64,000 bases of DNA, from contig NZ_BIFH01000024.1 of the NCBI RefSeq assembly GCF_003967355.1, forward strand, positions 62,001 to 126,000. The letters run 5' to 3'. Positions 6,580-12,356 of the stretch are shown here, one piece after another. A program made the translations under genes and the position numbers. Each line of letters starts with the position of its first letter. Position 1 is the first letter of the stretch. This stretch comes from Embleya hyalina. GTDB taxonomy: Bacteria > Actinomycetota > Actinomycetes > Streptomycetales > Streptomycetaceae. The notes under the pieces are model-generated. The model did not search any database. It was not told the DNA's origin and saw only the letters and a list, made by a program, of their open reading frames with translations.

Positions 6580-6718
6580 ATTCTCCAGATGATCGTCCCG
6601 GGTTCCCGTGCCCCGGGGCGCTCCCCAATGCGCAACTCTCCGTCGCCGACCCCCACCGCGCGCCGCGCGCCGCCGGCCGACACCCCCGGGCGACCCGTCG
6701 GGGTGGAAGAGTGGTGGG

Positions 6719-9700
6719 GTGTACATCTCGGTGCTTGGCCCGCTCCAGGCGTGGGACGACGACGGTCGATCCGTGACGATCGGCGGCGCGCGCCTGCGCG
6801 CGCTGCTGATCCGCCTGTCCCTCGACCCCGGCAGACCGGTCTCCGCCGACCGGTTGATCACGGCCGTGTGGGGTGAGGACCCCCCGTCCGGCGCGGGAAA
6901 CGCGTTGCAGTCGCTGATCTCCCGACTGCGCCGGCAACTGCCCGTCGGGCTCGAATCGGGGCCGGCCGGCTATCGGCTCGACATCCGCCCCGACGACCTG
7001 GACGCGCACGTGTTCGCCGAGTCGGCGGTGCGCGGACGCCGGCAACTCGACGGGCGCGACCCCGCCGGCGCGGCCGAGACGCTCACGCGCGCGCTCGCGA
7101 TGTGGCGCGGCCCGGCCCTGGTCGACGCCGCCGACGCGAGCTTCGCGTCGGGACCCGCGGCGCGGCTGACCGAGCAGCGGTTGGGCGCGATCGAGGACCG
7201 GGTCCAGGCGCAGCTGATCCTGGGCCGCAGCCAGGGGCTGGCCGCCGAATTGGAGCAGCTCACCCGCGAGCATCCGCTGCGTGAGCGGCTGTACGGCCTG
7301 CTGATCCGCACGCTGCACGAGGAGGGCCGCCGGGCGGACGCGCTGACGCTGTATCAGGACCTGCGCGAGCGGCTGGCGGACGAGTTGGGCATCGACCCCT
7401 CGCCCGACCTGGAGGCCGCCTACCTGGCCGTGCTGCGCGGCGGCGACTCGCGGCCCGCGCCGGTGCCCGCGCCCGTCGCCGCCTTCGCGTCGCCCGCGCC
7501 CGCCCCGCCGGCCGTCGCCCGCCCGGCCCCGGGCAATCTGCCCGCCCGGCTGACCACCTTCGTCGGCCGCGAGGACGAGGTGGACCGGGTCGACCGGCTC
7601 CTCGGCCAATCGCGCCTGGTCACCGTCGTCGGCCCCGGCGGCGCGGGCAAGACCCGACTGAGCACCGAGGCCGGCAGCCGGATCGCGACCCGCGGCGTGG
7701 GCGTGGACGGCGGCATCTGGTTCGTCGAACTCGCCCCCGTACTCGACCCGTTGGACGTACCGCAGGCCGTCCTCGGGGCGCTGGGCCGTCGCGAGGTGGG
7801 CCTGCTCGATCCGCATCTGGCCGGTGCGCGCGACCTGATCGACCGGATCGTCGACGCGTTCACCGGCCCGCCCAGCCTGCTGATCCTGGACAACTGCGAG
7901 CACCTGATCGCCGCCGCCGCGAGCTTCGCCGGTCGACTGCTCGCCCGCGCGCCGTCGCTGCGCATCCTCACCACCAGCCGCGAGCCGTTGGGCATCGACG
8001 GCGAGATGTTGTACCCGCTGGGCCCGCTGGCCCTGCCGCCGGTCGGTGTCGACGCCGCGGACGCGCTGGGCTACGCCTCGGTGCGGCTGTTCGCCGACCG
8101 GGCCCGCGCGGTGCGGCCGGGCCTGGCCGTCGACGCCGACACGATCGGCGCGGTCGGCGAGATCTGCCGCCGGCTCGACGGCCAGCCGCTGGCCATCGAA
8201 CTGGCCGCCGCCCGCACCCGCTCGCTCACCCCCGCGCAGATCGCCCACCGCCTCGACGACCGCTTCCGGCTGCTCACCGGCGGCAGCCGTACCGCGCTGC
8301 CCCGCCACCAGACGCTGCGTGCGGTGGTCGAGTGGAGTTGGGACCTGCTGGAGGAGCGCGAACGCACCGCGCTGCGCCGGTTGTCGGTGTTCGCCGGCGG
8401 CACCACCCTGGAGGCCGCCGAGGCGGTGTTGCCCGGCGACGACTTCGACCCGGCCGACGTGCTCGACCTGCTCGCCGGACTGGTGGACAAGTCGCTGGTG
8501 GATGTGATGGGCAGCACCGAGACCCGCTACCGGCTCCTGGAGACCATCCAGGCGTACGCGAGCGAGAAATCGGCCGAGGCGGGCGAGGCCGAGGCGACCT
8601 CCGCGCGGCACGCGCGCTGGTTCATCGATTACGCCGAGGCCGCCGGCGCCCGGCTGCGCGGCCCGGAACAGATCGAGGCGATCGGCCGGATCACCGCCGA
8701 GCACGACAACCTCGCCCTCCTGCTGCGCTACGCCGTCGACCACGCCGACGCCGGGCTGGCCACCCGATTGGTCGACGCGCTCTCCTGGTACTGGGCGATG
8801 CGCGGCACCCACGCCGAGGCGTATTCCTGGGGCCACGAGGCGCTCGCCCTGCCCGGCCCCGTGCCGCAGGCCCGCCGGGCCACCGCGCTCGCCTTCCACG
8901 CGCTGCACTCGTTCTCCGCGGGAGAGCGGGGCACCGCGCTGCGCTCCTACGCCCGGGCCCGGCTGATCAGCCGTCGGCTCGACCCCGGCGAGGTGCCCGA
9001 ACTGCCGGTGTTCATGGAGTTGTTGGCGTCCATCATCCGCACCGACCAGGCGGCTCTGCGGGCTGCGTTGCAGGACGCGGACGACATCGACGATCCGTGG
9101 GTCCAGGCCATGGCCCGGCTCATGCGCGGACACTTCGCGGTCAACCTGGGCAGCCCCAAGGAGGCGGTGACCTTCCTGACCGACGCCCGGGATCGGTTCG
9201 CGGCGATCGGAGACTGCTGGGGCCGGGCCTCGGCGATCTCGGGACTGGCCGAACTGTTGATGTACACGGCGGACTACGACGAGGCGCTGGCCGCCGTGGA
9301 CGAGGCGCTGGGTCTGCTGGGCGCGCTCCAGGCCGAGGACGAGATCCCGCAACTGATGGTGCGGCGCGGGATGATCCACGCCCGGGCCGGCGACATCGCC
9401 CTCGCCCGGCAGGTGATGGAGGACATCTCGCGCCGCCCCGGCGCGCCCGGCACCTCGCTCACCACCGGTCTGGGCACCACCCTGGGCCTGGCCGAACTCG
9501 CGCGCTTCGTCGGCGACTTCGACGAGGCGGGACAGCGCTACGACCAGGTGCTCGCGGCGCTGCCGCCGACGCCGCGACTGCCGCAGTTGCCGCCGCAGTT
9601 CATCTGCAGCCTGTACGTCGGCCGGGCGCACGTGGCGTGTGCGCGCGGCGACGCGGCGGCGGCGCGCGCCGACCTGCGCACCGGGCTGCCGTTCGCGTTG

Positions 9701-10066
9701 GAGAGCCAGGACATGCCGGTCCTGGCGGGCTGTATCGAGGGATTCGCCGCACTGGCGCTGGTCTCCGGCGAGCCGGAGCAGGCCGCGACCCTGCTCGGCG
9801 GGGCACAGGTGGTGCGCGGCCATCCCGATCTGGGCGACGTCGACGCGGACCGGGTGGCCGGGCGCGTCCTGGAGCGGCTGAGCGTCGAGGAGTTCGACCG
9901 GGCCCGGGCGATCGGCACGGCGATGACCCGCGAGGAGGTGGTCGCCCTGCTCGCGGCCGACATGCCCGTCGCGCCGCCACCGCTGTGGGTGTCGGGCGAC
10001 GGGTGGTCGACGCAGGAGCGGAGGGTCAGGCCCGACGGTTGTACTGACGCACCGTCAGCGGAATGA
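6719..10066 (+). CDS. AfsR/SARP-type transcriptional regulator (wHTH-BTAD-NTPase-TPR)
   Basis: 1115 aa. Domain order: OmpR-like winged helix (about 1-85, beginning 'VYISVLGPLQAW'), bacterial transcriptional activator domain (about 90-240), a Pro/Ala linker, a STAND-type NTPase with P-loop 'GPGGAGKT' near residue 304 and Walker B 'LLILDNCEH' near 388, then a helical TPR-like region to the end. This is the architecture of AfsR, which integrates signals to switch on secondary metabolism or export. The start is GTG 6719, placing the winged helix at the very N-terminus as in the family; the GGAAGAG upstream is a modest ribosome site. The last 41 nt overlap the opposing exporter permease gene. The neighbouring DrrAB-type exporter is a plausible target but this is inference. 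Confidence 0.9.
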   Translation: MYISVLGPLQAWDDDGRSVTIGGARLRALLIRLSLDPGRPVSADRLITAVWGEDPPSGAGNALQSLISRLRRQLPVGLESGPAGYRLDIRPDDLDAHVFAESAVRGRRQLDGRDPAGAAETLTRALAMWRGPALVDAADASFASGPAARLTEQRLGAIEDRVQAQLILGRSQGLAAELEQLTREHPLRERLYGLLIRTLHEEGRRADALTLYQDLRERLADELGIDPSPDLEAAYLAVLRGGDSRPAPVPAPVAAFASPAPAPPAVARPAPGNLPARLTTFVGREDEVDRVDRLLGQSRLVTVVGPGGAGKTRLSTEAGSRIATRGVGVDGGIWFVELAPVLDPLDVPQAVLGALGRREVGLLDPHLAGARDLIDRIVDAFTGPPSLLILDNCEHLIAAAASFAGRLLARAPSLRILTTSREPLGIDGEMLYPLGPLALPPVGVDAADALGYASVRLFADRARAVRPGLAVDADTIGAVGEICRRLDGQPLAIELAAARTRSLTPAQIAHRLDDRFRLLTGGSRTALPRHQTLRAVVEWSWDLLEERERTALRRLSVFAGGTTLEAAEAVLPGDDFDPADVLDLLAGLVDKSLVDVMGSTETRYRLLETIQAYASEKSAEAGEAEATSARHARWFIDYAEAAGARLRGPEQIEAIGRITAEHDNLALLLRYAVDHADAGLATRLVDALSWYWAMRGTHAEAYSWGHEALALPGPVPQARRATALAFHALHSFSAGERGTALRSYARARLISRRLDPGEVPELPVFMELLASIIRTDQAALRAALQDADDIDDPWVQAMARLMRGHFAVNLGSPKEAVTFLTDARDRFAAIGDCWGRASAISGLAELLMYTADYDEALAAVDEALGLLGALQAEDEIPQLMVRRGMIHARAGDIALARQVMEDISRRPGAPGTSLTTGLGTTLGLAELARFVGDFDEAGQRYDQVLAALPPTPRLPQLPPQFICSLYVGRAHVACARGDAAAARADLRTGLPFALESQDMPVLAGCIEGFAALALVSGEPEQAATLLGGAQVVRGHPDLGDVDADRVAGRVLERLSVEEFDRARAIGTAMTREEVVALLAADMPVAPPPLWVSGDGWSTQERRVRPDGCTDAPSAE

Positions 10067-10865
10067 ACACCAGCATCAGACCCAGCGCCCACAGCAGCGC
10101 CACCATCGCGTGGTGCGCCACCGGGCCCCCGGTCAACAGCCCGCGCGAGGCGTTGGTGACCGCGGTGACCGGGTTGACCTTCACCCACGCCTGCAACCAG
10201 CCCGGCATGGTCGAGGTCTTGGCGAACAGGTTCGAGCCGAAGGTCAGCGGAAACATCATCAGGAACGAGACGCCCTGCACGGTGCGCGGCTGCTTCATGC
10301 TCACCCCGAGCAGTGCCACGACCCAGCAGAACGCGAACGCGAAGATCAGGACCAGACCGACCGCGGCGGCCACCGCGAGCACATTGGTGTGGAACCGGAA
10401 ACCGATGATGGTGCCGAACACGAACACCGACGTGATGGCGACCAGGAAGCGCAACACGTCGCCGAGCACGGTGCCCGCGAGCGGCGCGAGGCGCGATATC
10501 GGCAGGCTGCGGAAACGGTCGAACACGCCCGTGGACATGTCCGTGCACAGCCCGACACCGGTGCCCACCGACGCGAACACCACGGTCTGCACCATGATGC
10601 CGGGCAGCACGAACTGCAGATAGTCGTGCGTGCTGCCCTCGATCGCGCCGCCGAACAGGTACACGAACATCACGATGAACAGGATCGGCTGCAGCGTCAG
10701 GTCGATCAGCTGCTCGCTCTGCTTCTTCAGCTTTACCAGGCTGCGCCAGGTGAGGGTGAGCGTGTGCCGCACCACGGCGCTCGGGTCGTTGCGGTGTGCC
10801 GCGGGCTTGTGCGCGGGGGGTGGGGTGGCGCTCGGGTCGGCCGGGCGGACGGTGGTCGTGGTCAT
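10026..10865 (-). CDS. ABC-2 type permease, DrrB family exporter subunit
   Basis: 279 aa. Membrane subunit of a DrrAB-type multidrug or antibiotic exporter. About six hydrophobic helices are visible ('LQPILFIVMFVYLFGG', 'AAAVGLVLIFAFAFCWVVAL', 'AMVALLWALGLMLVF'), and the family motif 'SLPISRLA' follows 'GVFDRFR'. The N-terminal 30 residues are Thr/Pro/Ala-rich and presumably cytosolic. Its ATG overlaps the stop of a 34-codon ORF (ATGA), which itself overlaps the ATPase gene. The three are thus one translationally coupled unit. The 3' end overlaps the AfsR-like gene by 41 nt. Confidence 0.9.
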   Translation of the reverse strand: MTTTTVRPADPSATPPPAHKPAAHRNDPSAVVRHTLTLTWRSLVKLKKQSEQLIDLTLQPILFIVMFVYLFGGAIEGSTHDYLQFVLPGIMVQTVVFASVGTGVGLCTDMSTGVFDRFRSLPISRLAPLAGTVLGDVLRFLVAITSVFVFGTIIGFRFHTNVLAVAAAVGLVLIFAFAFCWVVALLGVSMKQPRTVQGVSFLMMFPLTFGSNLFAKTSTMPGWLQAWVKVNPVTAVTNASRGLLTGGPVAHHAMVALLWALGLMLVFIPLTVRQYNRRA

Positions 10866-10966
10866 CGGGAGGCTCCAGGGATGAGGGCCAGGTGGGAGAC
10901 GATCGTGAGGAGCAGGGCGAGCATCGGCATCACACGTGTGCCGTAACGGTCCGGAAGTCGGTTCAC
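10862..10966 (-). CDS. Candidate 34-aa membrane microprotein between exporter ATPase and permease
   Basis: Too short for usual gene callers. It starts at GTG 10966, overlapping the ATPase stop (GTGA), and ends with TGA overlapping the permease ATG (ATGA). A strong ribosome site (GAGGAAGG) precedes the GTG by about 6 nt. The peptide has a basic N-terminus (VNRLPDRYGTR) and then one hydrophobic segment, 'MPMLALLLTIVSHLALIPGA', enough for a single transmembrane helix. It could be a small exporter subunit, or a translated linker that couples ATPase and permease synthesis. Homologs are not known to me. The coupling on both sides is directly visible; function is inference. Confidence 0.5.
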   Translation of the reverse strand: MNRLPDRYGTRVMPMLALLLTIVSHLALIPGASR

Positions 10967-11952
10967 GCGGCCTTCCTCTTCGGGTCCGCGCCGTCGTCCC
11001 GCTCGGCCGATTCCTGGCTGCGGTGCCCGGTGATGGTCAGGAACACCTCGTCCAGACTGGGCAGTTGCAGGGTGAACTCGTTGACCCGGATGCCCGCCTC
11101 GTCGAGCCGACGGACCACCACCGGCAGCACGTCCTCGTCGCTCACCGCGACGGTGGCCTGACCGCGCTCGTCTTCCACGAACGGCTCCCGGCCGGCGATC
11201 TCGCGCAACAGCTCGACCACGTCGGGCAGTCGGGTCGGGTCGACCGGCCGCACCTCCAGGCTCCGGCCGCCGATCTGCGCCTTGAGCTCGTCGGAGGTGC
11301 CGTTCGCGATCACCCGGCCGTGGTCGATCACCACGATGTCGTTCGCCAGATGATCGGCCTCGTCCAGATACTGCGTGGTCAGCAACACGGTCACGCCCTC
11401 GTCGCGGACCAGGTCGCGGATCATCTGCCACACGTCGCCGCGGCTGCGCGGGTCCAGGCCGGTGGTCGGCTCGTCCAGGTAGAGGAAGGACGGGCGTCCG
11501 ACCAGCGAGGCGGCCAGGTCGAGGCGCCGCCGCATACCACCCGAGTACGTGTCGGGGCTGCGCCCGCCCGCCTCGGTCAGGTCGAACCGGGCGAGCAGTT
11601 CGCGGGCCCGCGCCTTGGCCTCGGCACGGGGCAGGTCGAGCAGTCGGCCGAGCAGCAGCAGGTTCTCGAACCCGGTCATCTCCTCGTCCACCGACGCGTA
11701 CTGGCCGGTCAGACCGATCAGCCGGCGCACGTCCTGCGCCTGGCGCACCGTGTCGAACCCGCCGACCCGGGCGATCCCCGCGTCCGGCTTGATCAACGTG
11801 GCCAGCGCCCGCACCATCGTGGTCTTGCCCGCGCCGTTGGGGCCGAGCAGGCCCAGCACGGTGCCCGCCTCGGACCGCAGATCGATCCCGGCCAACGCGG
11901 TGGTGTCGCCGTACCGCTTGACCAAGCCCTCGGTCTCGATCGCGTATGTCAT
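10963..11952 (-). CDS. ABC exporter ATPase, DrrA (daunorubicin resistance) family
   Basis: 329 aa, the ATP-hydrolysing subunit that powers the DrrB-like permease. Walker A 'GPNGAGKTT' (about 39), signature 'YSGGMRRRLDLA' (about 137) and Walker B 'FLYLDEPTTGLDP' are intact. The C-terminal extension ending 'LPSLDEVFLTITGH' is the DrrA-specific domain. I chose ATG 11952, which has GGGGAG about 7 nt upstream. The in-frame GTG 11979 has a weak site. It overlaps the downstream microprotein by 4 nt. Substrate unknown; the AfsR-like regulator next door suggests a metabolite exporter. Confidence 0.9.
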   Translation of the reverse strand: MTYAIETEGLVKRYGDTTALAGIDLRSEAGTVLGLLGPNGAGKTTMVRALATLIKPDAGIARVGGFDTVRQAQDVRRLIGLTGQYASVDEEMTGFENLLLLGRLLDLPRAEAKARARELLARFDLTEAGGRSPDTYSGGMRRRLDLAASLVGRPSFLYLDEPTTGLDPRSRGDVWQMIRDLVRDEGVTVLLTTQYLDEADHLANDIVVIDHGRVIANGTSDELKAQIGGRSLEVRPVDPTRLPDVVELLREIAGREPFVEDERGQATVAVSDEDVLPVVVRRLDEAGIRVNEFTLQLPSLDEVFLTITGHRSQESAERDDGADPKRKAA

Positions 11953-12356
11953 GGGTTGCTCCCCGTGGGTGTCCGTCACATTCGTCCGGCGGGCGCTCGT
12001 CGACCGATCGACGCGGCTCGCCTCGTATGGAACCCAGCGTCGCCCGGGGCGCCGGCATCACACGCACACGCCGCCGGCATCGCCGGCAGCGGGCTGATCC
12101 ACCGGCCCGCCGCCCGGCCGATCGCAACCGGCGTCGCGGTCACGTGGGTCGCCGGCAGCGGTAGGGTCCTGGCCCTGAGGGTCTTGTGGGGAGAACGAGG
12201 GAAGACCATCGGGAGCCGTGACACGCTCGCGATAACTTCTGGGTGACGGCGTTCACCGGGCACCTCGGCGGTCGATGTTCGGCGTTCGACGAAGACCAGC
12301 AGGGTGTGTCGGGTCGACCGGCAGGGGGCACACGCGACAGTGGGGGAGGCAAGGCG
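11953..12356. other. Divergent promoter region, exporter operon versus PknG operon
   Basis: 404 nt without a convincing gene. It must hold promoters for both directions. A loose inverted pair GGTCTT (12180-12185) / AAGACC (12202-12207) and an AT-richer patch near 12222-12240 are the only features I see. The first is compatible with an operator but is not strong. Confidence 0.4.

Follow-up and report, generated by a model that had tools for sequence, protein, structure and literature searches.

A short frame with exact stop-start overlaps bridges the ATPase and permease genes of a DrrAB-type exporter in Embleya and probably encodes a membrane peptide

The stretch of DNA analysed here, referred to as the window, comprises 64,000 nucleotides of Embleya hyalina (contig NZ_BIFH01000024.1, positions 62,001 to 126,000) and carries the two genes of an ABC exporter on its minus strand (Table 1). 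The ATPase contains the Pfam domains ABC_tran and DrrA1-3_C and scores 343.7 bits against the NCBIfam model TIGR01188 (DrrA), above the cut-off of 312.45. The permease passes the cut-off of the general ABC2_membrane family and, with 67.8 bits, stays under the curated cut-off (223.05) of the DrrB model TIGR01247. Its start is firm, since the stretch that separates the ATG at 10865 from the nearest upstream stop of the same frame contains no in-frame ATG, GTG, TTG or CTG. This ATG lies 98 nt beyond the ATPase stop. Among the plasmid records, none covered 80% of the exporter pair at a single place. A large frame for a regulator of the SARP/AfsR type, in which regulator domains were identified, runs on the plus strand (6608-10066) and converges with the permease gene, so that the tails of the two overlap by about 40 nt at 10026-10066.

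Table 1. Coordinates of the exporter genes, the bridging frame and its signals in the window.
Feature	Position	Strand	Details
ABC ATPase, DrrA type	10963..11979	minus	listed start GTG 11979; alternative ATG 11952
Possible microprotein ribosome site AGAGGAAGG	10971..10979	minus	purine-rich, inside ATPase tail
GTGA, ATPase stop/microprotein start overlap	10963..10966	minus	GTG 10966-10964, ATPase TGA 10965-10963
Bridging microprotein frame, 34 codons + stop	10862..10966	minus	GTG start, TGA stop
GGAG, likely permease ribosome site	10873..10876	minus	inside microprotein frame, 7 nt before ATG
ATGA, microprotein stop/permease start overlap	10862..10865	minus	own TGA 10864-10862, permease ATG 10865-10863
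ABC-2 type permease, DrrB-like	10026..10865	minus	Pfam ABC2_membrane 85.3 bits, cut-off 26.9

The insert between the two genes is spanned by a short frame (minus strand, 10966-10862) that encodes the peptide VNRLPDRYGTRVMPMLALLLTIVSHLALIPGASR, followed by a stop. An earlier note, made from the letters of the window, had described this frame with a GTGA overlap towards the ATPase gene and an ATGA overlap towards the permease gene, and the coordinates confirm both. The frame has the geometry of a relay, its start and stop overlapping the stop and the start of its neighbours. The strong ribosome site that had been claimed for its GTG was borne out in part: a purine-rich site, AGAGGAAGG, is present 4 nt upstream of the GTG, with its AGAGG part 8 nt upstream, and it is plausible as a ribosome site, but it is not outstanding and varies among relatives. 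The GGAG in front of the permease is kept in all four Embleya sequences. With this site of its own, the permease may also start without coupling, which counts against the reading that we prefer below.

The single hydrophobic segment noted earlier was found as well, the best 18-residue Kyte-Doolittle mean of the 34-residue peptide being 2.29. The hydrophobic content of the peptide is unusual: among 7025 stop-free 34-codon frames, a set that includes real genes, 1.5% reached at least 1.9. An AlphaFold2 model of modest confidence (mean pLDDT 75.6, pTM 0.38), built on a five-sequence alignment, has a helix at residues 7-33. From its hydropathy and this modest model, the peptide can be regarded as a putative single-span protein, with one hydrophobic helix and fewer than 50 residues. 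It had no match in Pfam or NCBIfam at E 0.001. When five peptides were compared with Pfam at E 10, the sole match was DUF7503, for the locus L015, at E 0.09 and under the cut-off of that family.

The earlier note had held such exact coupling at both ends to be unlikely by chance, an argument that proved weaker than claimed. As a control we used 464 kb of the same genome, consisting of 20 stretches of 20 kb and the window, in which a simple gene finder, not the annotation, gave 225 same-strand gene pairs. Pairs were taken as comparable when they lay on the same strand with a gap of 20-300 nt and the upstream gene ended in a start-capable NTGA stop. Eight of 27 such pairs are bridged from stop to start when the exporter pair is included, and 7 of the 26 others. 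The double overlap alone is therefore weak evidence and not rare, being found in about a quarter of the comparable gapped pairs of this genome. Gapped pairs with a CTGA stop were bridged in 9 of 73 cases and those with TAA or TAG in 3 of 25. The difference between start-capable and other stops (7/26 versus 12/98) is not significant (p 0.07), and relays are thus not established as a genome-wide rule. Hydropathy sets the exporter peptide apart, as the best value among the 19 other bridging peptides of the control, one of which was too short to score, was 1.11 versus 2.29 here.

Comparison with related genomes, which had been proposed as a check, came out in favour of the frame. All four Embleya genomes, this one included, keep it at the same length, without indel or stop and with the 98-nt spacing; the overlap at its start is ATGA or GTGA and the one at its end is ATGA. 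Two of the peptides are identical, and the remaining two are MNALPDLYGTRVLPLLAVLLLTISHLALVLGASR and MNRLADLYGTRVLPMLALVLLTIAHLGPVLGATR. Differences at codon positions 1/2/3 in the six Embleya pairs are 0/0/3, 8/5/11, 9/6/11, 8/5/9, 9/6/10 and 8/3/11. When the same changes were placed at random, the probability of as few amino-acid changes was, in the same order of pairs, 0.015, 0.018, 0.13, 0.06, 0.22 and 0.015. These tests of amino-acid constraint are weak, with P below 0.05 in three of the six pairs and between 0.06 and 0.22 in the others, the pairs being non-independent. The dN/dS of the frame was 0.31-0.58 in the five diverged pairs, and in the closest pair none of the three changes is nonsynonymous; for the same five pairs the permease gave 0.22-0.32 and the last 30 codons of the ATPase 0.30-0.56. 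Judged by these ratios, the constraint on the frame appears moderate, resembling that of a variable protein tail and below that of the transporter core.

Real genes in GC-rich actinobacteria tend to have a higher G+C content at codon position 3 than at position 2. We found GC3 to exceed GC2 in the frame of all six sequences from Embleya and two genomes of its sister genus (p 0.02 to <0.0001), with L009 and L010 near-identical among them. In L009 and L012, where the remaining two frames of the insert were tested as well, these lacked the pattern. The same index is used in PMC9094748. Conservation and this coding signature support the suggestion of the earlier note that a short gene had been missed because of its length, even though the argument from chance overlaps is weaker than claimed. 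Moreover, a hydrophobic stretch is present in all five distinct peptides of these six sequences (Kyte-Doolittle 1.89-2.49), hydrophobicity and low GC2 being non-independent signals. Simulated neutral change at the divergence seen within Embleya (22-25 changes) kept the stretch in 13-28% of the runs, so its retention within this genus is weak evidence. When the microprotein was searched for in 394 genomes of the family, the four Embleya loci were the only matches below E 0.001. There were many matches from E 0.0025 upward, of which the six next-best loci (L125-L130) had no related permease nearby.

We also traced four other bridges of the same genome into the other three Embleya genomes (G001, G002 and G003). 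The bridge of L240 is kept in G002 and lost in G003 through indels that put both frames in phase, and it has no full match in G001. The bridge of L245 persists in G002 and is broken in G001, and G003 has an unrelated bridging frame of 55 codons in its place. For that of L249, a full match and a bridge were found only in G002, the nearest of the three genomes. The fourth, at L256:11999-12463 (minus strand) between genes that we take to be nuoL and nuoM, spans a 65-nt gap with 23 codons from GTGA to ATGA; its frame is kept without indel in all four Embleya genomes, with CTG as the first codon in one of them. Conservation of a bridge is thus not unique to the exporter, and two of the three bridges that could be traced further break or change. 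The G003 counterpart of L245:14121-14612, L273, has a 161-nt gap of unrelated sequence in which the 55-codon frame runs exactly from GTGA to ATGA, and the upstream product of this pair looks, by eye, like a sigma factor.

These comparisons bear on the idea that the frame arose by chance in GC-rich DNA, or is translated without consequence. It would fit the frequency of bridges in the control, with both start-capable and other stops, and short frames of M. tuberculosis have been described as pervasively translated and mostly free of signs of selection, as far as the available text of PMC9094748 goes. We consider it very improbable, since all four Embleya genomes conserve the frame together with its coding signature, whereas the bridges of L240, L245 and L249 are lost, replaced or poorly matched among the same relatives. 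The persistence of the presumed nuoL-nuoM bridge tempers this point, as some other bridges persist too.

In two of three genomes of the sister genus the gap holds a longer, diverged frame, of 43 codons in one and 58 in the other, with NTGA at both ends. These two frames were missed by the microprotein search and were found by reading the gaps between the ATPase and permease genes. Both are hydrophobic near the C-terminus, and they are more alike each other than either is to the Embleya frame; their homology to the latter is assumed from position and character. If they are homologous, neutral change at 40-50 of 99 sites, a figure that is an assumption and not a measurement, would keep the hydrophobic stretch in 1-4% of the runs. 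The third genome (L014) has a gap of 101 nt, whose frame, with CTG as its would-be start, is neither hydrophobic nor higher in GC3 than in GC2. The peptide is therefore dispensable there.

To see the frame in the wider setting of its operon type, we surveyed related exporter loci. From the 231 loci examined, the weakest matches having been left out, 8 were removed because the related permease or the upstream ATPase was missing and 8 as duplicates, which left 215 distinct loci. ATPase and permease overlap directly by NTGA in 177 of the 215 by our counting rule, or in 178 with the misfiled L115; in-phase inserts behind a start-capable stop were scored as direct overlap, in the survey and the control alike. 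A gap of more than 20 nt behind a start-capable ATPase stop was found in 14 loci, and 13 of these are exactly bridged by frames of 17-58 codons. A locus was counted as bridged when the frame stop overlaps any in-frame start candidate of the permease, and L013, L015 and L235 offer a second possible permease start, in frame and upstream of the start to which the bridge leads. The lone unbridged locus of the 14 is L200, where the 5' end of the permease gene looks frameshifted just past a direct-overlap start, by sequencing error or by a real change. With Embleya counted as one lineage (collapsed by eye, for this genus only and without a tree), 10 of 11 are bridged versus 7 of 26 control pairs (Fisher p 0.0005), and outside Embleya and the sister genus 7 of 8 gapped loci are bridged (p 0.004), an excess to be read in view of a control that comes from one genome, whereas the survey spans many. 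Six gapped loci with a CTGA stop were kept outside the 14, and two of them (L014 and L180) have an in-phase open frame from the CTG. Gaps of 20 nt or less occur in 17 loci, with a single start-capable stop, in L103 (13 nt), which is unbridged. Within this sample, a bridge is nearly always present where a gap has taken the place of the coupling overlap and the ATPase stop is able to act as a start.

The peptides of the seven bridged loci outside the two genera are unrelated. None of their frames has GC3 above GC2, and the same holds for L180, as for L014; the six of these peptides that were scored lack a hydrophobic stretch, the seventh, in L157, having 17 residues and being unscored. Since frames for unrelated peptides bridge the gap just as exactly in these relatives, the bridge itself may also be the function. 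In Embleya, too, the frame could be translated solely to pass ribosomes on to the permease, with a functionless peptide whose hydrophobicity is incidental. The seven loci agree with such a role, as does the sister-genus genome without a hydrophobic peptide, and uORFs that purely deliver ribosomes are a recognised idea in the available part of PMC12548453. For Embleya we nevertheless hold this explanation to be rather unlikely, because GC3 exceeds GC2 in six of six sequences and the hydrophobic stretch is retained despite divergence, both in Embleya and in two sister-genus genomes.

KdpF is an example of a small single-span protein that acts on a transporter. AcrZ likewise has fewer than 50 residues and one hydrophobic helix and is linked to a transporter, AcrB, on which it acts (PMC7267776, as far as excerpted). 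By analogy, and in line with the coding signature and the hydrophobic helix, the peptide might be an accessory subunit or regulator of the exporter whose overlaps reflect ordinary operon packing, coupling being unimportant. The exact bridges with unrelated peptides in seven of the eight gapped loci outside the two genera speak against this, and we regard it as improbable. Unlike AcrZ and KdpF, the peptide matches no Pfam or NCBIfam family, its frame sits between two exporter genes, and its interaction with the exporter is a prediction made here.

Further candidates were rejected. For a structural RNA switch, the consensus fold of the four Embleya sequences had only 1 of 38 pairs changed on both sides. 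A frameshift fusion of ATPase and microprotein is permitted by the frames and was rejected because a slippery-looking heptamer is found in L011 only and is not conserved among the remaining three sequences from Embleya. In L011, inspection by eye shows GGGAAAA in the ATPase tail, directly ahead of the stop and phased as a -1 slippery heptamer would be. A mobile repeat was considered as well. Mycobacterial interspersed repetitive units (MIRUs) share with the present insert the -4 nt overlap of the insert frame with a neighbouring gene, here as GTGA and ATGA, and are repetitive and apparently mobile in the account of PMC12548453 available to us. The insert is single-copy in the 12.05 Mb genome (next-best match E 0.05 over 26 bases) and is therefore not a MIRU by the repeat criterion. 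It further differs from MIRUs in that its peptide has a coding signature and a hydrophobic helix.

Coupling in DrrAB has been the subject of published work, and tap-repA of plasmid R1 is a well-known uORF of the termination-reinitiation kind. The exporter described here has the same gene pair and order as DrrA-DrrB exporters with a direct 4-nt overlap; it differs in having two overlaps instead of one, joined by a frame of 34 codons. With the coupling uORFs treated in the accessible part of PMC12548453 it shares a short frame whose stop overlaps the start of the main gene. Unlike these, the frame is coupled at both ends and lies between two subunits of one complex. Among the titles and abstracts that our searches of the open-licence literature covered, none describes a gene lying between drrA and drrB or bridged operons of the DrrAB type. 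Hence the geometry is already known from MIRUs and coupling uORFs, while the gene and the DrrAB bridge appear undescribed in that literature.

Taken together, we favour, with a probability of about 0.6, a genuine short gene with two roles, as a translational relay and as the source of a selected membrane peptide in Embleya and two of the three sister-genus genomes. A ribosome finishing the ATPase at the GTGA would restart immediately on the overlapping GTG, read the 34 codons, terminate at the ATGA and restart on the permease. In reporter experiments with native gene pairs of E. coli and Haloferax, reinitiation falls steeply with distance and is almost abolished in E. coli at +38 nt, and the -4 overlap is the commonest spacing (PMC10666635, available part). 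The relay would thereby preserve the 4-nt stop-start coupling usual in this exporter pair in spite of a 98-nt insert, which by itself would disrupt it. Its product would be a single-span membrane peptide under selection at the protein level in the genomes named. Given the position of its gene, it most likely sits beside the permease or aids the insertion, assembly or activity of the latter. The frame, its exact overlaps, its conservation with a coding signature and the surplus of bridges among gapped loci are observations; from these we infer translation, coupling and membrane insertion of the peptide, and its contact with or effect on the exporter.

A double stop-start overlap in a single genome is insufficient by itself as evidence for a gene. 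Read across relatives, these loci form a natural series, from the direct overlap through gaps whose bridging peptides look random to one whose bridging membrane peptide looks selected. We tentatively put forward, as a possibility, that gapped two-gene exporters of actinobacteria are repaired by bridging minicistrons, through which the hand-over of ribosomes is regained, and that membrane microproteins can arise from such neutral relays, the peptide being already an exporter subunit in Embleya and the sister genus and a random peptide elsewhere. The natural series therefore makes both selection on the coupling of subunits and coupling minicistrons as a source of small proteins testable in one operon type.
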